A stretch of 37,941 nucleotides of DNA. Origin: Bacteroidaceae bacterium (GTDB taxonomy: Bacteria; Bacteroidota; Bacteroidia; Bacteroidales; Bacteroidaceae). The position numbers were made by a program, and so were the translations under genes. The stretch is taken from assembly GCA_024401225.1 (NCBI GenBank), contig JAKSLM010000025.1:1-37941 (forward strand), in the 5' to 3' direction. The number at the start of each line of letters is the position of its first letter. Position 1 is the first letter of the stretch. Shown here piece by piece: positions 10,317 through 27,617 of the stretch. A model generated the notes under the pieces. That model was not told the origin of the DNA. It saw nothing but the letters and a program-made list of their open reading frames with translations, and made no database searches.

Positions 10317-11452
10317 AAAAGATTTGTATATTAGGCTCTACAGGTTCTATCGGCACACAGGCCCTTGATGTCATTTCCCAGCATCCGGACCTCTACGAAG
10401 CATACATCCTCACGGCTTACAACAATGCCGACCTTGTGATCGAGCAGGCAAGGAAATTTAAGCCGGAAGCTGTAGTAATAGCCAACGAAGCTAATTATAA
10501 TAAGGTACGCGAGGCTCTTGCCGACCTGCCTATCAAAGTATATACCGGAGCACAGGCACTGTGCGATGTTGTGCAGGACGATAATGTAGATATAGTACTT
10601 GCTTCCATGGTAGGATTTGCCGGACTGGAGCCAACCATTGCTGCCATCAAGGCAAAGAAAGCCATCGCACTCGCCAACAAGGAAACCCTCGTCGTAGCAG
10701 GCGACCTTATCACACGCCTTGCCAACGAGTATCAGGTCCCTATCCTTCCTGTCGATAGCGAGCATTCTGCCATCTTCCAGTGCCTTGAGCCAGGCAACCG
10801 CATAGACAAGATTCTCCTTACCTGTAGCGGCGGTCCGTTCCGCAAGTTTGATGCCGAGCAGATCAAGCATGTCACAAAGGACGATGCACTTGCCCATCCT
10901 ACATGGAACATGGGAGCAAAGATCACCATCGACTCTGCAACGCTGATGAACAAAGGCTTCGAAGTGATAGAGGCAAAGTGGCTCTTTGGCGTTCGTCCTG
11001 AGCAGATTCAGGTCGTAGTCCACCCTCAGTCGGTGATCCATTCCGCTGTTCAGTTTGAGGATGGTGCCGTGAAGGCTCAGCTTGGAGTGCCAGACATGCG
11101 TTTACCTATACAGTACGCCTTCAGTTATCCAAAGCGACTCACACTCAATGGCGACCGTCTGGATCTGTTCAAGATGCAGAATCTCACATTCGATGAGCCT
11201 GACACCAAGCGTTTTCCATGCCTTGCACTTGCTTACGAGGCATTGCATCAGGGAGGTAATGTGCCATGTATCGTAAATGCTGCCAACGAGATTGCCAACC
11301 GTGCATTCATCGACGATCGCATCCCTTATCTGCGCATAGCAGAGATCATCGAGCAGACAATGAAGCACATCGACTTCTGCAACGACTCATCGCTCACCAC
11401 ATATTTAGAAACAGACAAAGTAGCACGCGCATACGCGTCAACACTTATTTAA
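10313..11452 (+). CDS. dxr: 1-deoxy-D-xylulose 5-phosphate reductoisomerase
   Basis: Converts 1-deoxy-D-xylulose 5-phosphate to 2-C-methyl-D-erythritol 4-phosphate with NADPH, the first committed step of the MEP isoprenoid pathway. The 379-residue protein shows ILGSTGSIGTQALD (NADPH-binding), ANKETLV, the metal/substrate motif PVDSEHSAIFQCL and the flexible-loop/active-site segment around MGAKITIDSATLMNKGFE, including the later EAKWLF glutamate. It overlaps rimM by 4 bp and precedes rseP by 24 bp. Two further MEP genes, ispF and ispE, are in this window. Confidence 0.96.
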   Translation: MKKICILGSTGSIGTQALDVISQHPDLYEAYILTAYNNADLVIEQARKFKPEAVVIANEANYNKVREALADLPIKVYTGAQALCDVVQDDNVDIVLASMVGFAGLEPTIAAIKAKKAIALANKETLVVAGDLITRLANEYQVPILPVDSEHSAIFQCLEPGNRIDKILLTCSGGPFRKFDAEQIKHVTKDDALAHPTWNMGAKITIDSATLMNKGFEVIEAKWLFGVRPEQIQVVVHPQSVIHSAVQFEDGAVKAQLGVPDMRLPIQYAFSYPKRLTLNGDRLDLFKMQNLTFDEPDTKRFPCLALAYEALHQGGNVPCIVNAANEIANRAFIDDRIPYLRIAEIIEQTMKHIDFCNDSSLTTYLETDKVARAYASTLI

Positions 11453-12942: not shown

Positions 12943-13575
12943 ATGAAAATTCTTGCAGTTGGCATGAATTATGCCGAACATATTGACGAGTTACATAATA
13001 AAGTACTCAAAAACACGTTTAAACCTACAGAGCCTGTCATCTTCTCCAAACAGGAAAGCTCACTATTGCGCGATCATAAGCCGTTCTTCGTTCCCGACTT
13101 CGCCGAGCGATTCGATTATGAAACGGAACTCGTAGTCCGCATAGCTCATGTGGGTAAGGACATCAGCGAACGCTTTGCCCACCGCTACTACGAAGAGGTA
13201 ACGGTAGGCATCGACTTCACCGCCCGCGACCTTCAGAACCGCCTCAAGCAGCAAGGACTGCCATGGGACATCTGCAAGGGATTCGATGGCAGCGCAGCCG
13301 TAGGCGAGTTTGTCAAGATCAAGGACCTGGGAGGCGACATTCAGAACATCAACTTCCGCCTCGACAAGAACGGTCAGACCGTGCAGCAAGGATGCTCATG
13401 CGACATGCTGTTCACAGTCGATCAGATTATTGCCTACGCAAGTCGCTTCTTCACCCTCAAGACCGGTGACCTCATCTTCACAGGCACACCTGTAGGTGTT
13501 GGTCCTGTACAGGAAGGCGATATCCTTGACGGATACATAGGCGAAAGGCATCTGCTTCATCAAAAAATAAAATAA
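12943..13575 (+). CDS. Fumarylacetoacetate hydrolase-family protein
   Basis: A 210-residue single-domain FAH-family protein. It has the metal-binding acidic pair in FDYETELVVRI, the GIDFTARDLQ segment with Asp, the lysine in DICKGFDGSA and the C-terminal glycine-rich loop GDLIFTGTPVGVGPVQEGD. Members act on beta-keto or 2-keto acids (for example acylpyruvate hydrolysis or oxaloacetate decarboxylation); the substrate cannot be told from sequence. It lies 17 bp after rseP and shares its last base with the start of porU (TAATG), so its translation is coupled to porU, although no functional link is obvious. Confidence 0.88.
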   Translation: MKILAVGMNYAEHIDELHNKVLKNTFKPTEPVIFSKQESSLLRDHKPFFVPDFAERFDYETELVVRIAHVGKDISERFAHRYYEEVTVGIDFTARDLQNRLKQQGLPWDICKGFDGSAAVGEFVKIKDLGGDIQNINFRLDKNGQTVQQGCSCDMLFTVDQIIAYASRFFTLKTGDLIFTGTPVGVGPVQEGDILDGYIGERHLLHQKIK

Positions 13576-16500
13576 TGATCACGTACATCCGAACATTAAC
13601 CACCATCATTCTCCTCATGCTCTCTGCATCATTCACTTATGCAGGGAAATGGCGCGACGGCTCATTGCTCAGCAATGGTCGTTGGGTAAAGGTCCGTGTG
13701 GCTAATGAAGGAGTATACCAGTTGTCCAAGTCCTACCTTTCCAGCGTAGGATTCTCCAATCCCGACAATGTGCGCCTCTACGGCTACAACCTTCCGTTAT
13801 TGCCTGAGGCAAACGATGCCAACACACTCGATGACCTTGTTGAGATTCCACTCTACAAGCGTGCTTCCGATGGCGCATTGCTCTTCTATTCCAAGGGACT
13901 GATCGACTGGAAGCGCAGTTCACAGAGCAGCACCTTCACCCACACGGTCAACCCTTACAGCAAGTACGTATATTACTTTCTGACTGAAGATACCAATGCT
14001 GCACCTCGTATGCAGAAGGCACAAGCTGCTGCCCCTTCGCGCAACGTTCAATCCACCTACCTTGCCCACACGCTCATCGATCCCGATGAGTTTTCGTTCA
14101 TAAATGCCGGACGCACCTTCTTCGAGCGTTACGACTACGCAAGCGGCTATCGCAAGGTGTACAACATGCAGCTCGAAGGCACACCGATAGGCGATGTACG
14201 CCTTGCTGTGCAGTTTGCTGCTGCAGGAAAATCGATGTCCTCGCTCACCGTACGCAGCGACTCCAATGCCATCGGCACAATCAACTTCTCGCCTTTGGCC
14301 GAGTTTGAATATGCTAATGTCAATAGTGCAACATACAGCATTGCCAACATTCTGACTGACAAGCTGCGCATCACGTTGCAGCACAATCGCACCGATGGCA
14401 TTTCAGGTCATCTCGACTATCTGCGTGCATCCTACATGACCTCGCTCTCCATCACAGACAAGACCTACCTTGCCTTCACGCCGAATTCATCCGGTAACAC
14501 AACATTCCAACTGAAGCATAAGGATAAAGTGTCAGTATGGAAGGTCACATCTCCTCTTTCAACCTCTGAGATGGAGACCACCGATGCTGATGGCACGTTG
14601 TCGTTCAATACCAATGCTACGACCATCAATGATCAGTTTGTTGCCGTGCGTACCGATGCCGACTTCCCTACTCCGGAGAAGGTAGGCAAAATTGACAATC
14701 AGAACCTGCACGCACTTCACGACATTGACCTCCTTATCATCATTCCATCCAACGGACGCCTACTCGAACAAGCACAGCGACTTGGTGAGGCACATGCTGT
14801 TTACGACAACATGACCTATGCCGTCGTTCGTGCTGATCAGGTCTACAACGAGTTCTCATCCGGCACACCCGATGCGACTGCATATCGTCGCATCATGAAG
14901 ATGCTCTACGACAAGGCATCAGCAAGTTCTGCCCCCGATGCACGCTTCCCTCGCAACCTTCTCCTCTTCGGCGGTTGCAACTGGGACCACCGACTCGTCA
15001 CTTCAGGCATGTCATCCCGTTCAACCGACGACTACCTCCTCTGTTACGAGTCCTATAATTCGTGGAGCCATACCGACAGCTATGTAAGTGAGGAGTACTT
15101 CTGCGTACTCGATGATGGTGAAGGCGTTTCTCCTCTTAAGGAAAAGCCTGATGCTGGTGTAGGCCGCATACCAGTCACTACTCCTGCCGAAGCGAAAAGC
15201 GTAGTCGACAAACTCATCGCATACATCGAGAACCGTAAGGCAGGAGCATGGAAGAACACCATCTGCTTCATGGCTGATGATGGCAACAACAACACTCACA
15301 TGAAGGATGCCGAAGCCGTCATCACCAACACCCGAACTCTCTACCCAGACTTCTACTATAAGCGCATCTATTGGGACAGCTATGAACGTAAGCAGAGCGC
15401 TACAGGATTCAGCTATCCTGATGCCTATAACGCTATCAATAAGATTATGGATGATGGCGCTCTCGTCATGAACTATACTGGTCATGGCGCAGCCTACTGT
15501 CTCTCGCACGAGCAGACACTCAAGACTGCCGACTTCCAGCGCTGGTCATCACCTCGTCTTCCGTTATGGATCACGGCTGGCTGCGACATTTGTCCATTCG
15601 ACATGAACGAGGAGAACCTCGCCTGCGAAGCGCTCCTCAACAGCAAGGGAGCTGCCATGGGCATCATCTCTACTGCTCGCACCGTCTATTCAAGTCCTAA
15701 CCGCGTCATCAACCGCTACCTAATGCGCCACCTCTTTGAAACAACTGAGAGTGGTACCCGCTACACCATCGGCGAGGCACTTGCTATGGCAAAGTGCGAC
15801 ATTGTCCAGCCTTACATCTCGCGTCAAGACTCTATCAACAAGGCACAGTTCGTACTCATGGGTGACCCAGCCATCACCATGCTTGCTCCTACTTATAAGG
15901 TGCGCATCGACTCCATCAACGGTGAAGCTGTGTCGTCCTCGTCTTCCCCACTCTTCAAGGCTGGAGACATAGTAAAGATGACAGGCCACATAGTCGATGA
16001 GCGCGGACTTACCGTACCTACATTCAACGGCACTATCACTCCTACCATTCTGGATGCCGAGCAGGACATCGTCTGCAAGAACAATGCGGGCGATGATATA
16101 GACAATTTCGTATATCAAGATCATCCGCAGACCATCTATTCTGGTTCGTCACTCATCAAGGGAGGCAAATTCAGCCTTTCCTTCCCTGTGCCACTTGACA
16201 TCCTTTATTCCGACAGTAAGGGGCTCATGTACCTATATGCCATCAACGACTCGTGCACTATCGAAGCCAATGGTACGTTCGACCGTTTCACAGTAGGAGG
16301 CACCAACACCGAACTTGCTACCGACACCATAGGTCCGTCCATCATCATCGGGTTCCTTACCGACCATTATGGAGCACCTGTCTTCGATGAGTCGCCTACC
16401 ATCATGGTCAGCATCAGCGATGCAAGCGGTATCAATACCACAGGCAACGGCATAGGCCACGATATTGTTGCCATCGTTGACAACGATGAGAGCCTCACCT

Positions 16501-16841
16501 TCTCGCTCAACTCTTACTACAACCAGACACTTGGCGATTTCACTTCGGGCAGCATCCGCTACACCCTCTCATCGCTCCCTACGGGCAAGCATACCCTTAT
16601 GGTACGTGCGTTCGACTCCTATAACAATCCAGGCATGGCAACCATAGAATTTGAGGTTGTGGAAGGTTTGCAGAAGCGCATCGAGATCTTCGACACAGCT
16701 GGTCGTCTCTATACTGACAATCCTTCAAACCCTCTGCCTCCGGGCATCTACATCCGCCGCATCACCTATTCGTCCGATGCTACTGGATACGAAAACCGCA
16801 AGTCGGAGAAGTTTATTGTCAAAGGCTATCCTAAGCGATAA
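13575..16841 (+). CDS. porU: Type IX secretion signal peptidase PorU-like
   Basis: A gingipain-fold (C25-family) cysteine protease. In Porphyromonas it sits on the cell surface, removes the C-terminal sorting domain of type IX cargo and transfers the cargo to A-LPS. The 1088-residue protein has a signal peptide (TIILLMLSASFTYA). A PorU N-terminal region (KWRDGSLLSNGRWVKVRV) follows. The C25 catalytic domain comes next with His637 in NYTGHGAAYC and Cys670 in WITAGCDICPFD, both in the expected spacing. Ig-like C-terminal domains end in a T9SS-like segment (IEIFDTAGRLYTDN...GIYIRRI). The final domain is typical of PorU itself. It is last in the tsaB-porU run and followed by porV. The two proteins form the attachment complex in species studied. 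Confidence 0.93.
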   Translation: MITYIRTLTTIILLMLSASFTYAGKWRDGSLLSNGRWVKVRVANEGVYQLSKSYLSSVGFSNPDNVRLYGYNLPLLPEANDANTLDDLVEIPLYKRASDGALLFYSKGLIDWKRSSQSSTFTHTVNPYSKYVYYFLTEDTNAAPRMQKAQAAAPSRNVQSTYLAHTLIDPDEFSFINAGRTFFERYDYASGYRKVYNMQLEGTPIGDVRLAVQFAAAGKSMSSLTVRSDSNAIGTINFSPLAEFEYANVNSATYSIANILTDKLRITLQHNRTDGISGHLDYLRASYMTSLSITDKTYLAFTPNSSGNTTFQLKHKDKVSVWKVTSPLSTSEMETTDADGTLSFNTNATTINDQFVAVRTDADFPTPEKVGKIDNQNLHALHDIDLLIIIPSNGRLLEQAQRLGEAHAVYDNMTYAVVRADQVYNEFSSGTPDATAYRRIMKMLYDKASASSAPDARFPRNLLLFGGCNWDHRLVTSGMSSRSTDDYLLCYESYNSWSHTDSYVSEEYFCVLDDGEGVSPLKEKPDAGVGRIPVTTPAEAKSVVDKLIAYIENRKAGAWKNTICFMADDGNNNTHMKDAEAVITNTRTLYPDFYYKRIYWDSYERKQSATGFSYPDAYNAINKIMDDGALVMNYTGHGAAYCLSHEQTLKTADFQRWSSPRLPLWITAGCDICPFDMNEENLACEALLNSKGAAMGIISTARTVYSSPNRVINRYLMRHLFETTESGTRYTIGEALAMAKCDIVQPYISRQDSINKAQFVLMGDPAITMLAPTYKVRIDSINGEAVSSSSSPLFKAGDIVKMTGHIVDERGLTVPTFNGTITPTILDAEQDIVCKNNAGDDIDNFVYQDHPQTIYSGSSLIKGGKFSLSFPVPLDILYSDSKGLMYLYAINDSCTIEANGTFDRFTVGGTNTELATDTIGPSIIIGFLTDHYGAPVFDESPTIMVSISDASGINTTGNGIGHDIVAIVDNDESLTFSLNSYYNQTLGDFTSGSIRYTLSSLPTGKHTLMVRAFDSYNNPGMATIEFEVVEGLQKRIEIFDTAGRLYTDNPSNPLPPGIYIRRITYSSDATGYENRKSEKFIVKGYPKR

Positions 16842-16965: not shown

Positions 16966-18183
16966 ATGAACAAAAAATATATCATACTCATCATCGCACT
17001 CCTCACACAGTGCTGCCTCAATCTTCAGGCACAGGATGTGAAGAATCAGTACAACCCAATCTACTACGGAGTGACATCCCTTGGCATTGCACCTGATGCA
17101 CGTGCCGGAGGTATGGGCGACATCGGTGCAGCCACCGACCCTGATGTCAACTCTCAGTTCTGGAATCCTGCAAAGTATCCATTCTGCATTTCGCGTTCGG
17201 GTATTGCACTCAACTATACTCCTTGGCTCCGCAGCCTCGTGAGCGACATCGACCTTGCCAACATCACCGGCTACTACCGTCTTGGCGACTACGATGCACT
17301 TGCAGGTTCGCTGCGTTACTTCTCGCTTGGTGAAGTAACGACTGAGGATGAGATGATGACTATCCGACCTTATGAAATGGCAGTCGACCTCTCCTACTCG
17401 CGTATGCTTTCCGAGACCTTCTCAGCTGCAGTAGGTTTGCGATTCATCTATTCCGACCTTGCATGGAAGGACGACGACACCTTCCCAGGATCCGCCTTTG
17501 CTGCCGACATTGCGCTCTACCACAATGGTTACCTCATGATGGGTGGACGCGAGTGTCAGCTTGGATGGGGTCTGAACATTAACAATATCGGTTCTAAGAT
17601 TTCATACGACAAGGGCAACACCAGCGAGTTTATCCCAACCAACATGCGTCTCGGTCTGTCATACATGATCCCTGTAGATGAGTACAACACCTTCAGCATC
17701 TCGGCCGATGCCAACAAGCTCCTCGTACCTACACGCCCTACAATGGAACAGTACGTTCAGCACATGGTTGAGACCGAGGGAGGCGACCCATCCATGTATG
17801 AATATGACTTCGGCGGCTATAGTGCATACCTTCAGGACGAAGGCTACTACAACAAGTCGTCCATCTCGGGTATGTTCAGCAGTTTCTCCGATGCTCCAGG
17901 CGGATTCAAGGAGGAGCTTCAGGAGATTCAGTGGTCCATCGGTGCCGAGTATTCATACAACAATCAGTTCTTCGTACGTGCCGGCTACCACCATCAGGCA
18001 GAGAACAAGGGTAACCTTAAGTACTTCACCGTTGGTGCAGGATTCAAGATGTCCGTATTCTCAATCGATGCAGGCTATGTCATCGCTGCAGCACAGAACA
18101 ACCCACTCGACCAGACTCTCCGCTTCACCCTTGCCTTCGATATGGACGGCATTGGAGATCTCCTCGGTCGCAAGCGCCGTTAA
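16966..18183 (+). CDS. porV: Type IX secretion outer membrane protein PorV
   Basis: A 405-residue FadL-like 14-stranded barrel protein (PorV, also LptO). It shuttles type IX cargo from the SprA translocon to the PorU attachment complex. It has a signal peptide (IILIIALLTQCCLNLQAQ). The family signature near residues 30-70 reads GVTSLGIAPDARAGGMGDIGAATDPDVNSQFWNPAKY (G-I-x-P-D-A-R-x-G-G-M-G-x-x-G-x-A). The C-terminal barrel strand ends FTLAFDM and continues to a short basic tail (GRKRR). It lies 124 bp downstream of porU and 38 bp upstream of ispF. Confidence 0.95.
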   Translation: MNKKYIILIIALLTQCCLNLQAQDVKNQYNPIYYGVTSLGIAPDARAGGMGDIGAATDPDVNSQFWNPAKYPFCISRSGIALNYTPWLRSLVSDIDLANITGYYRLGDYDALAGSLRYFSLGEVTTEDEMMTIRPYEMAVDLSYSRMLSETFSAAVGLRFIYSDLAWKDDDTFPGSAFAADIALYHNGYLMMGGRECQLGWGLNINNIGSKISYDKGNTSEFIPTNMRLGLSYMIPVDEYNTFSISADANKLLVPTRPTMEQYVQHMVETEGGDPSMYEYDFGGYSAYLQDEGYYNKSSISGMFSSFSDAPGGFKEELQEIQWSIGAEYSYNNQFFVRAGYHHQAENKGNLKYFTVGAGFKMSVFSIDAGYVIAAAQNNPLDQTLRFTLAFDMDGIGDLLGRKRR

Positions 18184-18221: not shown

Positions 18222-18704
18222 ATGAAAGTAAGAGTAGGTATGGGCTTCGATGTCCACCAGCTTGTTGAGGGACGCGACCTCTGGCTTGGAGGCGTGAAGA
18301 TCGAGCACACGCTCGGACTCCTGGGCCACAGCGATGCCGATGTGCTCATCCATGCCATCTGCGACGCTATACTCGGTGCTGCCAACATGCGTGACATCGG
18401 CTATCATTTCCCTCCCAAAAAGGGTAATGAATTCGAGAACATCGATTCCAAAATTCTCCTGCGCCGTACGGTCGACATCGTGGCTCAGCGTGGATACCGC
18501 ATAGGCAACGTCGATGCTACCGTATGTGCCGAACGCCCAAAGATCAATCCTCACGTACCAGCCATGAAGCAGGTACTTGCCGACTGCATGCAAATCTCGG
18601 AGGACGATGTGAGCATCAAGGCCACCACCACCGAGCATCTTGGATTCACTGGTCGTGAAGAGGGCATGAGCGCCTACGCCGTTGTGCTCCTTGAGAAGGA
18701 ATAA
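18222..18704 (+). CDS. ispF: 2-C-methyl-D-erythritol 2,4-cyclodiphosphate synthase
   Basis: Cyclises CDP-methylerythritol 2-phosphate to the cyclodiphosphate in the MEP pathway. The 160-residue protein is of normal length. It has the zinc ligands in GFDVHQL (Asp/His) and GLLGHSDADVLIHAICDA. The C-terminal ATTTEHLGFTGREEGMSAYAVVLL segment is fully typical. The last 26 bp of the coding sequence (18675-18700) recur perfectly at 21852-21877, downstream of a 3-kb AT-rich block. The gene seems intact; it has probably had its original 3' end replaced or duplicated. Located 38 bp after porV. Confidence 0.96.
   Translation: MKVRVGMGFDVHQLVEGRDLWLGGVKIEHTLGLLGHSDADVLIHAICDAILGAANMRDIGYHFPPKKGNEFENIDSKILLRRTVDIVAQRGYRIGNVDATVCAERPKINPHVPAMKQVLADCMQISEDDVSIKATTTEHLGFTGREEGMSAYAVVLLEKE
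18675..18700 (+). repeat. 26-bp direct repeat, left copy (ispF 3' end)
   Basis: Identical over 26 bp to 21852-21877 with no similarity outside on either side. This copy encodes YAVVLLEK plus part of the last codon, ending in GAA TAA. It marks the left edge of the AT-rich islet that carries the type IX cargo gene. Confidence 0.85.
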
Positions 18705-18729
18705 ATGTTTTATTATTATATAAAATAAA

Positions 18730-18756
18730 GGCTGAAACCAAATTACGGTTTCAGCC
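18730..18756. terminator. Bidirectional-looking hairpin after ispF
   Basis: Perfect 10-bp stem, GGCTGAAACC (18730-18739) and GGTTTCAGCC (18747-18756), with a 7-nt loop. It is followed by ATTTTC on the plus strand and by a TTTATTTTA-like tract on the minus strand. It could end ispF transcription from the left and the peptide/cargo operon from the right. Confidence 0.75.
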
Positions 18757-18812
18757 ATTTTCATATAGTGAATATATACAAGAAATAGTTCTTTAGAAAA
18801 TCTAGATTTTAT

Positions 18813-19025
18813 TCAAAACTCAAGATCCTCGATGAAGTCACCGATTGCCTTGGCACCTGCACCTTCAGCATCAAAATCAACACCAGAGACTCCGCCACTG
18901 ATTGGATGATCAGAATCGGCAGAACTACCACCCACATCCCATAATGCAGAACCAGAATCAGCAATGACACTTTCTTCTTCAATAGCTATTACAAGTACAG
19001 TTGGTTTAATATAATTCTTTTTCAT
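18813..19025 (-). CDS. Small acidic peptide of MKKxYxxP type, unknown function
   Basis: A 70-residue protein with no signal peptide or membrane helix, strongly acidic and Gly/Ser/Asp-rich after residue 22. Its first part (MKKNYIKPTVLVIAIEEESV, then IADSGS) follows a pattern I have often seen in short Bacteroidales proteins: MKK-x-Y-x-x-P, a hydrophobic strand, an E-rich stretch, then a small-residue run with Ser. No function is established to my knowledge. The leader-then-variable-core look resembles a precursor peptide, but no modification enzyme is nearby. It begins 10 bp after the stop of the type IX cargo gene, so the two are cotranscribed. The ORF is supported by its good start, its place and its distinct composition. 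Confidence 0.7.
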   Translation of the reverse strand: MKKNYIKPTVLVIAIEEESVIADSGSALWDVGGSSADSDHPISGGVSGVDFDAEGAGAKAIGDFIEDLEF

Positions 19026-19035
19026 AACATATTAA

Positions 19036-21618
19036 TTATCGAACAACACATTTTTTTCCGTTCACAATATATATACCCTTTGTAAGACCTTCAAGGCTAT
19101 TTCCTACCTTTTGTCCACGAAGATTATATACTATACCATCAGCAACATTCTTATTATTATCAATCTCAATTGAAACATTCTTAATAGCGGTTGCGTCATC
19201 TTCAGAACCCATGATAGAAGTAATTAATTTAGCATTGTTTGAAGGAGTTTCCAAACCACCCATATAATCAAGATTATCCTGCTGGCCTTCTGGCACGAGA
19301 ACTACTGCTGCATAAGGATTCCATGGTGAATTCTTGTCACCTTTCATAAAACGGAAGCACTGATTTGAGAAGCTGAAGTAATAGCTGTACTGTGGAATTC
19401 CCATTTTAACATGTTCCTGCTGAGGACCCAAGTCTTCACTATACGTCTTATAGTTACCAATAAAGCGATATTCACCTTGAGGAGTATCAGAATCGTCTGT
19501 ACAATGTGACATTACCTTTGTTACTACAGGGTCACCAGGAACAATTGCATAATCCGTGAAATCTGCATGTTCAGTAAGTGTTCTATCTGCATCAGCCCAA
19601 ATCATATAAGATACATGAGCCTTGAGAACGATGTCATCATCTGAGGTTGCACTTTCAAATTTTTCATCATTAAACTGAAGTGTAATATTATCAGCATTAC
19701 GTACAACACCACTAAACTCACAAAGGCGAATGTCATAAATAGGATTACCAACTGCATCAACAGACTTCTTTCCAAAAGTCTTCTTCATATCACCTTTAGT
19801 CATATTAAATGGTACACATATTGAATGCCACTTTCCATCAGCATATTTGTCAAGGTTCCACTTCTTGGTATCCTTCTGCAGACTTTCGCCAGAAGCAAAT
19901 ACAAACTGGTGAAGTCCAATAAACTCACTACCGTCTCCTTCATATGATCCACCATTATTTTTAATCAGATCGCCAATGCTTGTTACTCCATCCCATGTAA
20001 CACCATTTTGAGCTACGATAGTAGCACGCTGAGCCATACCCATTGAAGGCCAAGTGTACTGACTTCCGAGAGCATAATCATAATAAGCACCACTATAATC
20101 ACCACCGAAATATCCATTCACATAATTACCTCCTAGTGCACCATACTCTGTAACGTAATCATAATTACCATCCTCATCTAACAATGGTTCATTTCTTTGT
20201 GTTGATTCATTGAAATACATCTTTGGATTATATTCCTGTCCGAATGATTTTGGTGCATCCATGCCAGTTCCTGTACTACTAGCTAAAGGTCCATTTAATG
20301 GTGAGGTTTCCTGACCTGGATTATAATTAACATAAGCATCCGAATCACCGGCTTCTTGTTCAGCTAATAATTCCTCGAAATTCCAATCTATTCGCTTATA
20401 ATTACGTGATGTATCTGTATACTTTGCAGCCTGAGCTGGAGTACACTCAGCAGGATAATGCAGCATACACATATATCCATTAGTAGACTTGTAATTATCG
20501 CGAGCAGCATATCCTTCATCCAATCTTACCGTAACCTTTTCTGAACCTGTTCCAATTGCTGCAGTTTCAAGAGAAAGGGTATTGTTGCTGACATACGCAT
20601 TATTGCCCCAAGCAAATTTTGCAACTCTAGGAGCTTCAAGTCCTAAGAAATACACATCTTTTGGACATGTGCCGTCGAATGCACCTGTTTCAATATCTTC
20701 AAGACTAGCAGGAAAGACAAGAGTTTGAATATAAGAAATTTCGTTACCGTCCAAATCTTTGTTAGGAGCGGAGTTGCTATAATGCATGGCTACAGCCCCA
20801 CTTTTTATAGTCTTGAGTGTATTCGGGAATGTAATCGTTGAGAGCATAAATGGTGCTCCATTTGCAGAAATTGCATCTTTTTCAAGAACCTCTACACCAT
20901 CAGAAATATGAAGATATCTAAGATTTTTTATAAGATCAAATGAATGATTATATAAAACACTACCATTTGGTACTAGAGGTGTATAAAGAGTTTCTATTGT
21001 TGTATTTGGTGTTTGTGTATATTGATTTGCTTTACAGAATGTACCATTATTATTGTAAGTAGTAGGAGCATTCGCTTCATAATCATAATATGGTGACGTA
21101 ATCTCATCCATGTACACTCCAGAAAGATTAAGCACTCTCATGCTCAAATCCATAAGTGAGTGTACAACGGTATTATTTACACTCGCAGGATGCGATTCAT
21201 CCGAGCTTTTGAAAATAAGTGTGTTATTGTACGAACTGAGATCTGTGAGCAACTCATGCCAAATGTCGGTAGATCCATCTTTAAGTACCAATGCGAAAGT
21301 TCCCCATCCGCTCATTTTAGTCATTTGAGTGAAAGTCACTTCTGTTCCGCCAATTGAATAATGTCCACCAGGGATCCATTCTTCACCTGCTACAACTGGA
21401 GAATCACCATTTTTGATATTCTCACTTGCTCCGAAACCAGTAAATACGTACTTTTCGTTTGAGCCAAAAACCTGTGAAAGGTCACCATGAGCAACGATTG
21501 TAACATCTGAACCTACATTCTTTTCAATGGTAAATCCATTAGTGGCATCACCATAGTCGTCCTGTGCCATAGCACATATGCTAAAGCACCATGCAATTAA
21601 GATTAACATTCTTTTCAT
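19036..21618 (-). CDS. Type IX-secreted leucine-rich repeat surface protein
   Basis: An 860-residue exported protein. It has a signal peptide (MLILIAWCFSICAMAQ). Roughly residues 230-330 contain LRR_5/BspA-like repeats (LRYLHISDGVEVLEKDAI, STITFPNTLKTIKSGAV, TLVFPASLEDIETGAF), followed by a long unidentified middle. The C-terminus is a type A sorting domain of the Prevotella style: IVYNLRGQKVG...LTKGIYIVNGKKCVVR. Such cargo is cleaved and surface-attached by PorU/PorV, both encoded just upstream. The coding sequence is visibly richer in A/T and in ATA, TTA and AAT codons than the flanking genes, consistent with foreign origin. Its own promoter lies about 130 bp upstream, leaving a long leader. 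Confidence 0.85.
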   Translation of the reverse strand: MKRMLILIAWCFSICAMAQDDYGDATNGFTIEKNVGSDVTIVAHGDLSQVFGSNEKYVFTGFGASENIKNGDSPVVAGEEWIPGGHYSIGGTEVTFTQMTKMSGWGTFALVLKDGSTDIWHELLTDLSSYNNTLIFKSSDESHPASVNNTVVHSLMDLSMRVLNLSGVYMDEITSPYYDYEANAPTTYNNNGTFCKANQYTQTPNTTIETLYTPLVPNGSVLYNHSFDLIKNLRYLHISDGVEVLEKDAISANGAPFMLSTITFPNTLKTIKSGAVAMHYSNSAPNKDLDGNEISYIQTLVFPASLEDIETGAFDGTCPKDVYFLGLEAPRVAKFAWGNNAYVSNNTLSLETAAIGTGSEKVTVRLDEGYAARDNYKSTNGYMCMLHYPAECTPAQAAKYTDTSRNYKRIDWNFEELLAEQEAGDSDAYVNYNPGQETSPLNGPLASSTGTGMDAPKSFGQEYNPKMYFNESTQRNEPLLDEDGNYDYVTEYGALGGNYVNGYFGGDYSGAYYDYALGSQYTWPSMGMAQRATIVAQNGVTWDGVTSIGDLIKNNGGSYEGDGSEFIGLHQFVFASGESLQKDTKKWNLDKYADGKWHSICVPFNMTKGDMKKTFGKKSVDAVGNPIYDIRLCEFSGVVRNADNITLQFNDEKFESATSDDDIVLKAHVSYMIWADADRTLTEHADFTDYAIVPGDPVVTKVMSHCTDDSDTPQGEYRFIGNYKTYSEDLGPQQEHVKMGIPQYSYYFSFSNQCFRFMKGDKNSPWNPYAAVVLVPEGQQDNLDYMGGLETPSNNAKLITSIMGSEDDATAIKNVSIEIDNNKNVADGIVYNLRGQKVGNSLEGLTKGIYIVNGKKCVVR

Positions 21619-21744
21619 AATAAATTGTACTCGCAGCCTTTAGGTTTTAATCAGTGTATTTTTTTTTAGTTGATAGTTTAGTCCATAAAATCTAGGTACA
21701 CAATGGAGCTGCGTTACCAAAGACACCTTTGATTATTTGACGCG

Positions 21745-21753
21745 GCAAATATA
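21745..21753 (-). promoter_or_regulatory. -7 promoter element of cargo/peptide operon
   Basis: TAtaTTTGC on the minus strand (21753-21745) is an exact match to the Bacteroidetes -7 consensus. Transcription would begin about 120 nt before the cargo ATG at 21618, an unusually long leader. Confidence 0.6.
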
Positions 21754-21851
21754 CATATTAATTTGCACAATCAACATCTTTTTTTGTTTTTTTTTGTAAT
21801 TATCCTTCAATTTCTTCCTAATTTGTACTATTTACCTCCCAAATAATTCAA

Positions 21852-21877
21852 TACGCCGTTGTGCTCCTTGAGAAGGA
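21852..21877 (+). repeat. 26-bp direct repeat, right copy (orphan ispF 3' fragment)
   Basis: Identical to 18675-18700. Read in the ispF frame it gives YAVVLLEKD followed by TGA (21878-21880), that is, an in-frame C-terminus of IspF with its own stop and an Asp instead of Glu as last residue. A terminator follows at 21919. This looks like the original or displaced ispF tail at the right edge of an inserted block. Confidence 0.85.
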
Positions 21878-21918
21878 CTGATACACCTTTAGCCTACCGT
21901 TTTTTTACATATTGGATA

Positions 21919-21957
21919 GAAAACTTACATTTTTTCGTAGGTTTTCTTCTTTTTTTT
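21919..21957 (+). terminator. Terminator after orphan ispF fragment
   Basis: Arms GAAAACTTAC (21919-21928) and GTAGGTTTTC (21937-21946) pair with one G-U, and a T-rich tract of 11 follows (21947-21957). Its place, 40 bp after the orphan ispF tail and before the esterase promoter, fits an ancestral ispF terminator. Confidence 0.65.
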
Positions 21958-21969
21958 AAAAACAATATC

Positions 21970-21978
21970 TATCTTTGC
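21970..21978 (+). promoter_or_regulatory. -7 promoter element of carboxylesterase gene
   Basis: TAtcTTTGC matches the Bacteroidetes -7 consensus exactly, about 50 bp before the ATG at 22031. Confidence 0.6.
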
Positions 21979-22030
21979 AGCGAATACCTGAAACAAAATT
22001 ACTATTTATTTTCAATTAATTTATCCTATT

Positions 22031-23518
22031 ATGAAGAAACTATTGTGTCTCGTGTCACTCGTACTGGCACTTGTGGGTTGTAATCAGCAGCAGACCGCAG
22101 ACAACCCTGTACTGACCATCGAAGGCGGTCAGATTCAAGGCGTTATTGCCGACGATCATCCAGACGTATTCATCTACAAAGGCATTCCTTACGCAGCACC
22201 ACCTATCGGCGACCTCCGTTGGAAGGCACCTCAGCCAGTTGTTGCATGGGAAGGCGTTAAGATTGCCGACCAGTTCGGTCACCCTGGCTATCAGGCAGTT
22301 CACTACCCTGGCGGCTACGCTACTGAATGGGGCTATGGTGCAGAAGCACCTTACAGCGAGGACTGTCTCTATCTCAACGTATGGACCAAGGCTCCAGGCC
22401 AGGTGGACAAGAAGCTTCCTGTAGCACTCTGGATTCATGGTGGTGGCTACCGCGAGGGATGGGGCACAGAACCTGAGTTCGACGGACAGGAATGGGCAAA
22501 CAAGGACGTGGTGCTCGTGAGCATCAACTATCGCCTTGGTGTGTTCGGATTCCTCACTCACCCAGAGCTCTCAGCCGAGAGTCCTAACCACGTATCGGGC
22601 AACTACGGTATCCTCGACCAGATCGAGTCGCTCAAGTGGATCAAGAAGAACATAGCACAGTTCGGTGGCGACCCTGACAACGTGACCATCTTCGGTCAGA
22701 GTGCAGGTGCCGGTAGCGTAAAGACCATCTGTGAGTCACCACTTGCACGTGGTCTCTTCCACAAGGCTGTCATCATGAGTGGTGGCGGTATTGCACTTCC
22801 ACAGACTGATGAGGAAGCAAGCACAAAGGCCAACCCTGCACGCCGCTTCTTCCGTTCTTACCCAAGCCTTCAGGCATCCGAGGAAGCATCGAAGAAGGTT
22901 ATGGACTGGGCAGGCTTCACTGACCTCGAGAAGATGCGCGCAGCATCGACCGAGATGATGTACACAGTAGGTAATTTCTATAACATCAAGAATCAGGAGC
23001 AGATATGGCTCACAGGCTTCCCTATCGTTGACAAGTACGTAAGCATGGAGTCGTTCGACGATGCTACACGCGACGGTTCGCTTGCCGATGTGCCATACAT
23101 GATTGGTTACACACTCAACGACATGGGCGACATGGCTGAAGGTATTGCTGAGTTCTGCCGTGTTCGTGAGAGCAAGGGAGGTAAGGCTTGGGCTTACGAG
23201 TTTGCACGTCCATTGCCTGACGATGGTTCACATCCTGAGGTTACTGCACGCCTCAAGGGTGCATTCCACTCATCTGATCTCTGGTTCGTATTCAAGTCGC
23301 TCAAGCATTGCTGGCGTCCATGGACACAGGGCGACTGGGATCTTTCAGAGAAGATGCTCACAGCTTGGACCAACTTTGCCAAGTACAGCAACCCTAACGG
23401 TGCTGAGGATGGCGAATGGACACCATGCACAAAGGACAATCCAAACTTCATGCTCTTCAAGCTCGATGCCAACGATGCCGAGAAGTCGGAGATGGGTCAG
23501 CCTATTAAGCCAGAATAA
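22031..23518 (+). CDS. Type B carboxylesterase, predicted lipoprotein
   Basis: A 495-residue alpha/beta hydrolase of the type B carboxylesterase/lipase family. The signal peptide ends in the lipobox LVGC (Cys17), followed by Asn-Gln-Gln-Gln, so it is probably lipid-anchored and periplasmic or surface-exposed. Family motifs are YKGIPYAAPPIGDLRWKAP, EDCLYLNVW, the oxyanion region WIHGGGY, the nucleophile elbow GQSAGAG with Ser224, and a candidate catalytic His413 in GAFHSSD. The elbow has Gln in place of the more common Glu (GESAGG). It acts on a carboxylic ester; the substrate (for example acylated sugars or feruloyl esters) is not determinable. Its last 14 bp overlap the menA 3' end on the other strand. 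Confidence 0.93.
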   Translation: MKKLLCLVSLVLALVGCNQQQTADNPVLTIEGGQIQGVIADDHPDVFIYKGIPYAAPPIGDLRWKAPQPVVAWEGVKIADQFGHPGYQAVHYPGGYATEWGYGAEAPYSEDCLYLNVWTKAPGQVDKKLPVALWIHGGGYREGWGTEPEFDGQEWANKDVVLVSINYRLGVFGFLTHPELSAESPNHVSGNYGILDQIESLKWIKKNIAQFGGDPDNVTIFGQSAGAGSVKTICESPLARGLFHKAVIMSGGGIALPQTDEEASTKANPARRFFRSYPSLQASEEASKKVMDWAGFTDLEKMRAASTEMMYTVGNFYNIKNQEQIWLTGFPIVDKYVSMESFDDATRDGSLADVPYMIGYTLNDMGDMAEGIAEFCRVRESKGGKAWAYEFARPLPDDGSHPEVTARLKGAFHSSDLWFVFKSLKHCWRPWTQGDWDLSEKMLTAWTNFAKYSNPNGAEDGEWTPCTKDNPNFMLFKLDANDAEKSEMGQPIKPE

Positions 23519-24389
23519 CAATCAGCGCAGCCAATACTGATCCAAACAGGAAAATATAGAGTGCCGTCTTGCCAAGGAGCCGATTAAGTTCACGCCCTGC
23601 AAGATGGCACATTTCTTTATATAGGAACCACGCAAGAACAGGAAACACTAACAGCCCAGGGAAGCGAACCACGCCAATCATTGCCAGCACAGGACCTGCG
23701 ATGGCGCAACACAAATAGGCAATGCGTCCAAACCCCTTTCCAAACTTTACGACCACGGTACGCTTGCCGCTCACTCGATCCTGATCGACATCCCTATAAT
23801 TATTAACCAGCAGCAGGCAGTCCGTAACAAGACCTACGGAAAGTCCCGCTATAGTGGTGGTGGCAGACCACTCACCGCCTGTCATCACATAGTATGTAAA
23901 ACCTACTGGCACAATGCCAAAAAATACGAGTACCATCACATCGCCCCACCCCATGTACGACAGACAGGTGGTGTAGAGAAAACACCCCACGATGCATGCA
24001 GCACCAACAATCAGCAGTTCCCACTGCATGTTCCACACCAATATGCACAAACCAACGAGCGCCGACAACACAGTACACACTGCTATGCCAACCTTCATTG
24101 CATCCGGAGTGATCCAGCCTTGAGCACATGCACGCAACGGTCCCAATCGGTCCTCACGATCCGTACCTTTCTTAAAGTCAAAATAATCATTGACAAAATT
24201 AGCATCTATCTGCATAAGAAATGCAAACAGCAGACACATGGCGAACGGAAAGAGGCACGCAACGTCATGCATCGCATTCCATCCCAATGCTCCACCCACC
24301 AGCACAGGAGCTGCAGCCCCCGTAAGTGTCTTTGGTCGCGAAGCCAACAACCAAGCCTTCAAACCGTTAGTCGGTATCATTGTACTCAT
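23505..24389 (-). CDS. menA: 1,4-dihydroxy-2-naphthoate polyprenyltransferase
   Basis: Prenylates 1,4-dihydroxy-2-naphthoate to demethylmenaquinone in the inner membrane. The 294-residue protein is an UbiA-superfamily member with about eight to nine hydrophobic segments. The first Asp-rich motif is NDYFDFKKGTDREDR (prenyl diphosphate/Mg binding). The second is NNYRDVDQDRVSGKRT. The start region LLASRPKTLTGAAAPVLVG is typical of MenA. Met1 or Met4 could start. It is convergent with the esterase gene and divergent from the TonB-type receptor. The -7 element is at 24438-24430. Confidence 0.94.
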   Translation of the reverse strand: MSTMIPTNGLKAWLLASRPKTLTGAAAPVLVGGALGWNAMHDVACLFPFAMCLLFAFLMQIDANFVNDYFDFKKGTDREDRLGPLRACAQGWITPDAMKVGIAVCTVLSALVGLCILVWNMQWELLIVGAACIVGCFLYTTCLSYMGWGDVMVLVFFGIVPVGFTYYVMTGGEWSATTTIAGLSVGLVTDCLLLVNNYRDVDQDRVSGKRTVVVKFGKGFGRIAYLCCAIAGPVLAMIGVVRFPGLLVFPVLAWFLYKEMCHLAGRELNRLLGKTALYIFLFGSVLAALIVILA

Positions 24390-24429
24390 AGTCTATGTCG
24401 ATTTATCTTATATGTATTCAAAATCCACT

Positions 24430-24438
24430 GCAAAAGTA
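24430..24438 (-). promoter_or_regulatory. -7 promoter element of menA
   Basis: TActTTTGC on the minus strand (24438-24430) exactly fits TAnnTTTGC, about 40 bp before the menA start. For the opposite gene a weaker AAacTTTGC lies at 24484-24492 on the plus strand. Confidence 0.6.
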
Positions 24439-24554
24439 AGAATTATTCTTTAAAACTCCAAAGAAAACATTAAACCATTTCAAAACTTTGCAGTCAATGA
24501 GATTGTGAACCAAATACACAGCAGATAACAACAATATAAAATATAAGGTAAAAA

Positions 24555-27500
24555 ATGAAAAAACTATTCTCGACCCTTTTGCTCGCGCTCGTAGCCACTG
24601 CAGTAATGGCACAGAGCAAATTCACAGTAAAAGGTGTAATCATTGAAAAAGGTACAAACGAAGCGATTCCAAGCGCAACAGTACGTATCCTCAACCTTCC
24701 AGACAGTTCCATGGTCGACGGTGCAGCAACATCGCTCAACGGTTCCTTCACCATCAAAGACGTGAAGAAGGGCAAGTACGCCATCAAGGTGACCTACATC
24801 GGCTACACCGACCACGTACTCCCACTCGACCTCACGAAGGCAAAGGACAAGACCTTTGATATAGGATACATCACCCTCACCGAGGATTCAAAGATGCTCA
24901 AGGATGCAGTCGTTACAGCAGCTGCTGCTCAGGTGCAGGTAGTAGGCGACTCAGTAGTGTTCAACGCTGCTGCCTACCGCACTCCAGAAGGCTCAATGCT
25001 TGAGGACCTCGTGAAGAAGCTCCCTGGAGCAACAATGGAAGACGACGGTACTATCAAGATCAATGGTAAGACTGTCAACAAGATTCTCGTAGACGGAAAG
25101 GAATTCTTCCTCAACGACCGCGAGATGGCACTCAAGAACATTCCAACCAACATCATCGACAAGCTCAAGACCTACGACCGCAAGTCTGACCTTGCACGTG
25201 TGACTGGTATCGACGACGGTGAGGAAGAGACAGTCCTCGACCTCTCCCTCAAGAAGGGTATGAACCAGGGATGGTTCGGCAACCTCGATGCAGCAGCAGG
25301 TACACAGCACCGCTATTCAGGTCGTGCTAACCTCAACCGCTTCCTTGATGGTCAGCAGTACTCACTCGTTGCTAACGCCAACAACGTAGGCGGCCGTGGA
25401 TTCGGTGGCGGCGGTGGCCGTGGATTCGGTGGATTCGGTGGTTTCGGCGGCGGTGGTCTCCGCAGCAACAAGGACATCGGTTTCAACTTCGCTACTGGTA
25501 ACGACATCATCGAGGTAGGTGGTAACGTACGCTACCGTTACAATGGTTCCGACTCGCAGACTGAGACCAACTCAGAAAACTACTACTCTACAAGCACAAA
25601 CTACTCTACAAGCAAGAGCAACAGCTGGGGCAGTAACTACGGTGTAAATGCAGACTTCCGCATGGAATGGAAGCCAGACTCAATGACCAACATCATCTTC
25701 CGCCCATCAGGAAGCATCAGCCGCAATCGCTCACGCAGCAAGAGCAGCAATGCTACATACAACGCAAACCCTTATGAGAACGAGTACGGAACATTTGCCG
25801 ATCCACTCAGCATGCTCGACCGTATCACAGTTCTCGACAGCATCCTTGTCAACAGCAACGTAAGCAGTTCGCAGTCTTACAGCCTTAGCAAGAACCTCAA
25901 CGGAGAACTCCAGATCAACCGCAAGCTCAACAACCAGGGCCGCAACATCACTCTCCGTGCCACAGGAGCCATCTCATCGAGCGAGAGCAACAACCTCTCA
26001 GCAGCAAGCGTGAAGTATAGAACAGGTGCAGCACAGGACAAGAACAACAACCGTTACTCTACTACTCCTAACAGCAGCCACAACTACTCACTCCAGGCAA
26101 CATACTCAGAGCCAATCGCAAATCGCACATACCTTCAGTTCTCTTATCGCTTCAACTACAGCTACAATAAGAGCGACCGCGCTACAGGTATCTTTGACTC
26201 TTACAACCCTGTAGTATATACATCAATCAGTGAGGCTCTCGAGCGCAATCGATACAACGTAGCAGGAGCTATCGACGAACTCATCCAGAAGGGCTATCAG
26301 CCAGACTATACCGATCCAGAAGCTATCAAGCTCGCACAGTTCCAGGAGTATCGCAACTTCGACCACACAGCTACTATCAGCTTCCGCAAGGTAACTGACG
26401 ACTACAACTTCAGCGTAGGTCTCGATTTCCTCCCACAGCACTCTACACTCAACTATCGCTACATGGGACAGAACTACCCAGAGATCACACGTACAGTCTA
26501 CAACTTTGCGCCATCGATCGACTTCCGCTACAACTTCGACAAGCAGACACAGTTCCGCATCAACTACCGCAGCCGTACAAGCCAGCCATCGATGACAAAC
26601 CTCCTCGACATCACAGATGACTCTAACCCACTCAACATCACAAAGGGTAACCCAGGCTTGAAGCCATCGCTCAACCATAACTTCAACCTCAATTACAACA
26701 CATTCCAGATGGAGTCAATGCGCAGCGTCTTCGTATTCGGAGGTGGAGGTTTCACACAGAACAGCATCTCAAACCGTGTATACTACAACGAGGAAACCGG
26801 TGTACGCACCACAAAGCCTGAGAACATCAACGGCAACTGGAACGCTAATCTCGGCTTCGGTTTCAACCAGAGCTTTGGCCCTGAGAACCTCTTCTCTGTC
26901 AACTCAATGACTAACGGAAGCTTCAACCACCAGGTACAGTATGTTGATGAGACAAAGTATGCTAACGACAAGTCATCAACCAACAACCTCACTCTCGGTC
27001 AGCGCCTCTCATTCAGCTACCGCAAGGACTGGTTTGATGCAAGCATCAACGGTAACGTCAACTACTCACACGCTCGCAACAGCATGGTAGAGGCTAACAA
27101 CCGCGACACATGGAACTTCTCATACGGAGCAGAATTCAACTTCTTCTTCGATTGGGGTACAAGCCTCTCGACCGACATCTCTGAGAGCTCACGCCGTGGT
27201 TACTCTTCAGCCGACATGAACACCAACGAACTCCTTTGGAACATCCAGGTCAGCCAGTCATTCCTCAAGGGTAAGGCGCTTACAGTCAGCCTCCAGTGGA
27301 ACGATATCCTCGGTCAGCAGTCAAACATCAGCCGTACCATCTCAGCTATGTCATCATCTGACTCTCGTAGCAATGCAATCTACTCATACGGTATGATCCA
27401 CGTCATCTACAAGCTCAACATCTTCGGCAAGCGCGGCGGTGGTCAGGACAACCCATGGGGGCAGTTCGGTGGCCAGTTCCCAGGCGGTCAGTTCCCAGGT

Positions 27501-27617
27501 GGTGGTCGTCCAGGCGGTAACGGTGGCGGACGTCCAGCAGGTAACGGCGGTGGCCGACCAGCAGGTGGATTTGGTGGTGGCTTCGGTGGAGGCTTCGGCG
27601 GTGGTCGTATGCGATAA
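24555..27617 (+). CDS. TonB-type outer membrane beta-barrel receptor, glycine-rich
   Basis: A 1020-residue outer membrane protein. It has a signal peptide (LFSTLLLALVATAVMAQ). A CarboxypepD-regulatory-like domain spans about residues 24-110 (FTVKGVIIEKGTNEAIPSATV...LPL). A plug-like region with LEDLVKKLPGATMEDDG...VNKILVDGKEFF follows. The rest is a large barrel of the Outer membrane beta-barrel (OMP_b-brl_3) class rather than a classical SusC. Two glycine-rich tracts stand out: GGRGFGGGGGRGFGGFGG near residue 280, and a Gly/Pro/Arg-rich C-terminal tail over about the last 55 residues after the barrel. It is paralogous to 34770-37862 across the whole length. Transported ligand and TonB dependence are unknown; no SusD neighbour is present. 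Confidence 0.88.
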   Translation: MKKLFSTLLLALVATAVMAQSKFTVKGVIIEKGTNEAIPSATVRILNLPDSSMVDGAATSLNGSFTIKDVKKGKYAIKVTYIGYTDHVLPLDLTKAKDKTFDIGYITLTEDSKMLKDAVVTAAAAQVQVVGDSVVFNAAAYRTPEGSMLEDLVKKLPGATMEDDGTIKINGKTVNKILVDGKEFFLNDREMALKNIPTNIIDKLKTYDRKSDLARVTGIDDGEEETVLDLSLKKGMNQGWFGNLDAAAGTQHRYSGRANLNRFLDGQQYSLVANANNVGGRGFGGGGGRGFGGFGGFGGGGLRSNKDIGFNFATGNDIIEVGGNVRYRYNGSDSQTETNSENYYSTSTNYSTSKSNSWGSNYGVNADFRMEWKPDSMTNIIFRPSGSISRNRSRSKSSNATYNANPYENEYGTFADPLSMLDRITVLDSILVNSNVSSSQSYSLSKNLNGELQINRKLNNQGRNITLRATGAISSSESNNLSAASVKYRTGAAQDKNNNRYSTTPNSSHNYSLQATYSEPIANRTYLQFSYRFNYSYNKSDRATGIFDSYNPVVYTSISEALERNRYNVAGAIDELIQKGYQPDYTDPEAIKLAQFQEYRNFDHTATISFRKVTDDYNFSVGLDFLPQHSTLNYRYMGQNYPEITRTVYNFAPSIDFRYNFDKQTQFRINYRSRTSQPSMTNLLDITDDSNPLNITKGNPGLKPSLNHNFNLNYNTFQMESMRSVFVFGGGGFTQNSISNRVYYNEETGVRTTKPENINGNWNANLGFGFNQSFGPENLFSVNSMTNGSFNHQVQYVDETKYANDKSSTNNLTLGQRLSFSYRKDWFDASINGNVNYSHARNSMVEANNRDTWNFSYGAEFNFFFDWGTSLSTDISESSRRGYSSADMNTNELLWNIQVSQSFLKGKALTVSLQWNDILGQQSNISRTISAMSSSDSRSNAIYSYGMIHVIYKLNIFGKRGGGQDNPWGQFGGQFPGGQFPGGGRPGGNGGGRPAGNGGGRPAGGFGGGFGGGFGGGRMR

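Follow-up and report, generated by a model that had tools for sequence, protein, structure and literature searches.

A cargo-plus-peptide cassette in the variable slot behind ispF of a Bacteroidaceae bacterium, and the gene-tail scar that recombination may have left there

How does the end of a core gene come to stand twice on a chromosome, with an AT-rich block of other genes between the two copies? The question is raised by a contig of a Bacteroidaceae bacterium (JAKSLM010000025.1, assembly GCA_024401225.1), of which positions 1 to 37,941 were analysed; we call this whole stretch the window. Here, the complete copy of the essential gene ispF is followed by an islet with two genes, and behind the islet a 26-bp piece from the end of ispF recurs exactly. 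An earlier note, made from the letters of the sequence, had taken this for insertion at the 3' end of ispF, with the tail of the gene restored by the incoming DNA. Our data agree with insertion at this place, and we lean towards the reading that the block came as cargo into a variable slot, by recombination anchored on ispF and with an imprecise join at its far end, the repeat being the scar. The features concerned, from ispF to its partner at the other border, menA, are these (nt, nucleotides; aa, amino acids):

18222..18704, plus strand: ispF, complete, left border of the slot (TIGR00151, E 7.5e-63)
18675..18700, plus strand: copy 1 of the 26-bp direct repeat, an exact match to copy 2
18730..18756, no strand assigned: two-way terminator-like hairpin between ispF and the convergent pep70 (pattern scan)
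18813..19025, minus strand: pep70, a 70-aa peptide gene of the YxxP family, 11 nt behind the 860-aa gene (own profile A2, E 1e-20, with pep70 among the seeds)
19036..21618, minus strand: gene of an 860-aa predicted surface protein, like BspA leucine-rich-repeat (LRR) proteins (LRR_5, E 0.003, below the cut-off)
19039..19146, minus strand: C-terminal sorting domain of the 860-aa protein, of a kind like those of the type IX secretion system (T9SS) (own profile A1, E 9e-17; the sequence is a seed of the profile)
21830..21843, plus strand: candidate remnant of what was once a longer ispF tail (13 of 14 nt identical to ispF near nt 185; suggestive only)
21852..21877, plus strand: copy 2 of the repeat, a truncated ispF tail reading YAVVLLEKD-TGA (stop at 21879-21881)
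21918..21947, plus strand: terminator-like hairpin 3' of copy 2 (pattern scan)
22031..23518, plus strand: carboxylesterase gene, also within the slot (COesterase, E 3e-97)
23505..24389, minus strand: menA, right border of the slot (TIGR00751, E 8e-47)

The repeat is real and exceeds chance. In the 3.0-Mb assembly it occurs in two places only, searched with up to three mismatches. We also looked for exact matches to the final 200 nt of ispF in up to 14 kb of downstream sequence at 66 loci, namely the window, 41 relatives from its genus and 24 other members of the family (for 60 of the 66, 2 kb or more of such sequence was available); the longest was 26 nt in the window, 51 nt at a single further locus, L033, and at most 13 nt at the other 64, with at most 14 nt in a reversed-sequence control. 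The 41 relatives are what remains of a genus set of 44 (45 with the window's own genome), three of which gave no ispF match; overall, ispF was present in 97 of 101 genomes, own included. The genus looks like Prevotella. Genomes carry G-numbers and loci or contigs L-numbers, so that L033 belongs to G018, L037 to G035, L065 to G011, L063 to G010 and L054 to G022. The duplication had been described as the last 26 bp of ispF, and it is exact and near-terminal, but it ends in GGA, 4 nt short of the gene end, from where ispF continues A-TAA and copy 2 C-TGA. That copy 2 keeps the ispF frame and has its own stop proved correct. The terminator placed after it corresponds to the hairpin at 21918-21947; however, the three hairpins in 18600-22100 are pattern matches and not clearly enriched over the 1.9 (sd 1.5) expected from shuffles, and Rfam at gathering scores gave no match in that interval.

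The place where the islet lies is itself variable. Since ispF and menA are convergent, the slot has a gene end on either side, a location in which new DNA would be least harmful. Measured between the edges of tblastn matches, the distance from ispF to menA ranges from 52 to 8879 nt in 16 relatives, exceeding 2 kb in six of them, and is 4801 nt in the window. By comparison, the control gap between porV and ispF is 3-183 nt in 39 of the 41 relatives (L045 is cut by a contig end and L054 is rearranged), and gaps above 2 kb are found in 1 of 13 cases between menA and the MORN-repeat gene that comes next, and in 0 of 7 between the latter and an outer-membrane protein gene. Several relatives share this order, with menA on the opposite strand, then the MORN-repeat gene, an outer-membrane barrel gene and rsmD. 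In the remaining 25 of the 41, the contig ends or the gene order differs, being inverted in L069. The interval between ispF and menA is thus highly variable between conserved flanks, as in a hotspot.

What fills the slot differs from species to species. Seven relatives (L034, L045, L054, L058, L061, L064 and L073, all other species) have it empty, with 52-454 nt, and elsewhere it holds BspA LRR genes (L033, L037, L050 and L055), a C10 peptidase with an end like a T9SS C-terminal domain (CTD) in L052, a methyltransferase in L053, a YoeB/ParE-type toxin in L055 or an O-antigen ligase in L037. The contents compared belong to different families, except for the LRR gene common to L033 and L037. For 35 slot open reading frames (ORFs) of at least 90 aa from nine loci, scanned at E 1e-5, there was no integrase or transposase among the 25 of 28 Pfam families listed, and the statement in the earlier note that no integrase is present holds for the scanned ORFs of the window as well. 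The comparison across relatives that the same note had suggested gave empty and otherwise filled slots in other species but no empty site from the window's own. The carboxylesterase gene lies in the slot too, with relatives (E 1e-60) in 27 of the 45 genus genomes, own included, and no match at the 45 ispF loci examined; a megablast search of 22031-25000 against plasmids gave no match.

Three further slots may be recorded here. In L065, the slot carries a type I restriction-modification system and a Fic protein. That of L063 holds a run of nine ORFs whose starts resemble secretion signals by eye, one of them DUF6175 and three others without a Pfam match. In L054, the genes that come after ispF are menA, porV and porU, each on the opposite strand, so that the block itself rearranges.

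The second locus with a repeated ispF tail, L033 of G018, suggests how the layout in the window could have come about. There, behind a complete ispF, come first an antisense gene for a 498-aa BspA LRR protein (LRR_5, E 5e-57) and next a repeated ispF tail of about 308 nt, which starts at about nt 177 of the gene. The same LRR gene (LRR_5, E 5e-58) is found in L037 of G035, without a second tail. Between the two LRR genes, identity is about 100% for some 1.1 kb and 85-94% for the other 0.4 kb, and a 338-nt piece at the far end of the islet is 99.4% identical. The tail copy of L033 matches the ispF of L037 at 305 of 308 positions, and the first ispF copy of L033 matches both of them at 262 of 308. 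At the far junction, both loci share ...TTTACGGCTAC, after which L037 goes on with GACACTG and L033 with ispF (CACTTCCC), and the 7-bp microhomology CGGCTAC is common to both partners. Along porV, ispF and the islet, the identity of this one pair alternates between about 100% and about 80%. This mosaic, together with the shared LRR gene, points to a recent exchange between the two species, and the simplest reading of L033 would be that homologous exchange took place on the left and that the right end was joined through microhomology, so that the resident tail stayed behind. The idea that the gene's tail was restored by incoming DNA of the attachment-site (att) type finds no support in this case, in which the tail has about 308 bp and not 26, the junction is a 7-bp microhomology and the listed families include no integrase or transposase; movement by recombination, another of the options that had been raised, is the one that we favour.

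For G018, one homologous and one microhomology junction (7 bp) were seen together, and we infer a like origin for the window. DNA from related bacteria would enter by homologous recombination anchored on the side of ispF (and porV), while the far end, finding no homology, would become attached without precision within the resident ispF, where a few bases happen to match, and the truncated tail of the resident gene would be left behind the new cargo. In the window, copy 2 would be this scar, and the cargo would be a predicted surface protein with a T9SS-like CTD together with the small acidic YxxP peptide encoded right behind it. The 14-mer at 21830-21843 stops eight bases before copy 2; in 400 random 40-nt samples of the islet no match of its quality occurred, and in the sampled genome 0.39% of 40-nt windows reached it. 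As this relic matches near nt 185 of ispF, and the L033 tail has its start at about nt 177, copy 2 may be what an internal deletion has left of a longer ispF tail.

Several observations weigh against this reading. The slot could be followed in 16 of the 41 relatives, those with menA behind ispF in the expected orientation, which is fewer than half. No genome of the same species was found, the best ispF match having 86% aa identity, so the empty site has not been seen in the window's own species, and an ispF tail running directly into the sequence behind copy 2 was absent from a collection of genome contigs that may omit records very near the window. Tail duplication is rare, with 2 of 66 loci. 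(In G287, which has two ispF matches, the second was not located, and the contig fetched, L120, has no tail repeat.) Moreover, the copies in the window are identical at 26 of 26 positions, where the best of 65 other ispF genes reaches 22 of 26 and the median is 18, so that donor and recipient must have been conspecific or very close, unlike in G018; such identity is compatible with a single crossover at the 26 bp too. The 14-nt relic is weak evidence, given its 0.39% chance per window and its discovery after the fact. Finally, the genomes are fragmented and incomplete (the own assembly has 105 contigs and a completeness of 84%, and G018 is 77% complete), and an assembly error keeps a small probability.

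Of the other explanations, the one that survives best is a small integrative element, or satellite, inserted site-specifically at the 3' end of ispF, with the 26 bp as its att core and an integrase acting in trans or since lost. Gene 3' ends are classical insertion sites of integrases, and exact direct repeats at both ends, a restored gene end and a copy 2 with a stop and a terminator-like hairpin are what such an element would show. Against it stand the want of an integrase or transposase in the scanned window ORFs and among the families listed for the slots, the single tail repeat among the 65 other loci, which in L033 measures about 308 bp against the 26 bp of the window and begins elsewhere in ispF, the 64 others having none, and slot contents that, the LRR gene of L033 and L037 apart, come from different families. 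We rejected it as the first choice because that sole other case differs in length and has a microhomology junction, and no integrase was seen, and we regard it as unlikely. A single crossover of a circular DNA, either a plasmid or an excised circle sharing the 26 bp, by ordinary recombination and no dedicated recombinase, would yield exactly this layout and would account for the perfect identity of the copies; but 26 bp is short homology for a single crossover, the family scans recognised no gene of phage or plasmid type in the islet, and the microhomology junction of L033 would be left unexplained, which makes this explanation quite unlikely. We are still more doubtful that the region of ispF underwent a local duplication or rearrangement at an earlier time, the islet genes being inherited vertically in this lineage and the repeat a leftover. 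On this view, an old, longer copy could have dwindled to the 26-bp copy and the possible 14-nt relic, and the esterase and menA neighbours are shuffled too, yet the 860-aa gene has no match in 44 relatives of the genus and an extreme base composition, and a repeat that matches at all 26 bp gives no sign of being very old. That two strain variants of ispF were joined in an assembly of metagenome type (an origin that is only a guess) would suit the fragmented state of the assembly, with its 105 contigs and a completeness of 84, but is highly improbable, since copy 2 follows AT-rich sequence other than ispF, which still calls for a real junction, and the L033 junction shares 7 bases, probably too few for a k-mer join.

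The composition of the islet agrees with an outside origin of the 860-aa gene. As first noted, the islet is AT-rich, with a GC content of 0.32-0.44 per 500-nt window against 0.42-0.56 in the flanks, falling from about 0.51 to about 0.37, and both of its genes lie on the strand opposite to ispF. Among 203 ORFs of at least 150 aa in 335 kb of the own genome, the 860-aa gene has the lowest GC content at third codon positions (GC3 0.258, the next being 0.370; mean 0.609, sd 0.080), and by a hair the lowest overall GC (0.380, the next being 0.382); its codon score, however, is only the 14th lowest, so that, of the two measures whose comparison had been proposed, base composition speaks for insertion and codon use is less extreme. 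Nor do all close relatives carry the block, as a search of the 44 genus relatives at E 1e-10 gave nothing for the 860-aa gene. Insertion at the end of ispF is thus supported by intervals that are empty or differently filled in relatives, by a gene that they lack and by its GC3. No copy was found in a search of a wider genome contig collection, and in 398 other genomes of the family, with at most two candidates scored per listed genome, a single relative appeared, in G239 of another genus, and only for residues 510-860. This relative is a clear LRR protein (LRR_5, E 3.5e-21, 75.9 bits) with the same kind of CTD at its end and a YxxP peptide gene 14 nt behind it, while ispF lies elsewhere in G239.

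The 860-aa protein had been called a type IX-exported LRR protein. Its match to our CTD profile (A1, built from CTD proteins including this one) and its relative in G239 speak for that description, but its own score for the BspA-type LRR family (PF13306) is 17.9 bits, under the Pfam cut-off of 27.7, and no Pfam or NCBIfam sorting-domain model matches it, including the T9SS type A CTD (PF18962 / TIGR04183). Its N-terminus looks like a Sec signal, judged by eye. Export through the T9SS is therefore a prediction from a home-made profile and a signal read by eye, because no public CTD model matches. A single-sequence structure prediction was unusable (mean pLDDT 29), the PDB sequences gave no match for this protein, and neither did PHROGs and PADLOC for pep70, the 860-aa protein or the esterase.

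The second gene of the islet opens a wider view. A pattern search among short ORFs revealed a family of short acidic peptides (MKKxYxxP...S), here called YxxP, encoded right behind genes with a T9SS-like CTD, and from six seeds, five of them CTD-linked, we built profile A2. By this profile (E 0.01) the family occurs in 43 of the 45 genus genomes. Where at least 250 nt of upstream sequence were available (25 of 30 genus loci, two of the 25 being A2 seeds), 23 of the 25 have a same-strand CTD gene whose end lies 7-58 nt ahead of the peptide match, and in other genera a CTD gene precedes the peptide at 11 of 17 loci, an 18th having been dropped for insufficient upstream sequence; for comparison, CTD matches number 13-82 per whole genome. 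Read from the side of the CTD genes, the own genome has 31 CTD matches, and a peptide start lies within 20 nt at 4 of the 30 loci read. In 49 peptides the Y, P and S are invariant, to which selection by the profile contributes, W is among the last four residues in 32, and the median net charge is -6. The family was found in 231 of 399 sampled family genomes, in 207 of 308 with PorU and in 24 of 91 without, so that its link with the T9SS is strong and not exclusive. No Pfam model matched the four peptides tested, and NCBIfam had nothing for three of them; the first 17 residues of the fourth resemble a precursor model for radical-SAM ribosomally synthesised and post-translationally modified peptides, at a sub-threshold 13.4 against 45 bits, which is a faint hint only. 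Further YxxP sites lie at L137:12844-13014 and 15588-15752, in L101 and in L172-L219.

Having the Y, P and S of the family and lying directly behind a CTD gene, pep70 is, by the evidence of its sequence and position, a gene and not a stray ORF, and the recurrent pairing at the genus loci makes the islet a two-gene cassette of cargo plus peptide. The peptide would then function together with the cargo protein. We tentatively propose, slightly short of even confidence, that YxxP peptides are dedicated partners of T9SS-like surface proteins, as export helper, ligand or processed product, and that the two genes move jointly, as a cassette, from species to species and from one genomic site to another; the ispF-menA slot would be one of their entry points.

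The islet stands next to two genes of the secretion system that may serve its cargo, and the contig holds further genes of note:

13575..16841, plus strand: porU, type IX secretion sortase (NCBIfam NF033707, E 3e-276)
16966..18183, plus strand: porV, type IX secretion outer-membrane protein (NCBIfam NF033710, E 4e-149)
24555..27617, plus strand: outer-membrane beta-barrel gene after menA (family match; order kept in some relatives)

The earlier note remarked that the cassette sits beside its own export genes. As a description of position this is true, and a CTD motif is carried by 4 of the 39 first ORFs behind ispF and by 1 of the 371 remaining ORFs at these loci, with dockerin-like ends in 3 of 39 against 1 of 371. 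As the motifs were picked after the cases had been seen and each genome has tens of CTD matches (13-82, and 31 in our own), this enrichment is weak; a special link of the islet to porU-porV was rejected on account of the few cases, the post hoc motif and the wide spread of CTD genes, and the position beside them is probably incidental. Separately, another BspA-type LRR gene (LRR_5, E 5e-28) lies at 1110-2027, near the left end of the window. Genes for DXP reductoisomerase (10313-11452), IspF (18222-18704) and a GHMP kinase (31446-32276), which we take to be IspE, all lie within 22 kb.

Three sources offer systems for comparison. Hotspots of horizontal gene transfer that lack integrases and lie at recombining core genes are well described (Oliveira et al. 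2017, PMC5635113). The ispF-menA slot resembles them in its variable content between fixed core genes, in that no integrase or transposase was seen and in the recombination tracts in its flank, here in one species pair; unlike them, it is compared across species and not among strains of one species, its flank is the end of a porV-ispF run, and a gene-tail scar is visible. For the displacement of effector-immunity modules of the type VI secretion system in Vibrio cholerae, homology-facilitated illegitimate recombination has been proposed (PMC5361080). A homology anchor on one side with a non-homologous join on the other, and a resident remnant behind the new module, near secretion genes, are common to both cases. 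In contrast to those modules, the remnant here is a scrap of a housekeeping gene and not an orphan immunity gene, the cargo is not known to be a toxin, and T9SS-type cargo genes are found at many other places in the genome too. Cargo genes with a type B CTD cluster with PorP/SprF partners, according to a review (PMC10202324). Similarly, our T9SS cargo gene adjoins a partner gene, but this partner is a short acidic peptide instead of an outer-membrane barrel, and the CTD is another, short kind, unmatched by public models in the proteins tested. Our literature search found no paper joining ispF, integration site and genomic island, none joining PorU, PorV and ispF, and none joining type IX secretion, C-terminal domain and recombination hotspot.

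An integrase-free slot at core genes is of a known kind; the newest part of this work is the cassette of cargo plus peptide. The locus gives a base-level view of how surface genes may enter a Bacteroidota-type chromosome without a recognisable mobile element, and the truncated core-gene tail behind new cargo would be a scar that can be searched for in other genomes. The part most worth following is the YxxP family, an uncharacterised group of peptides tied to predicted secreted surface proteins.

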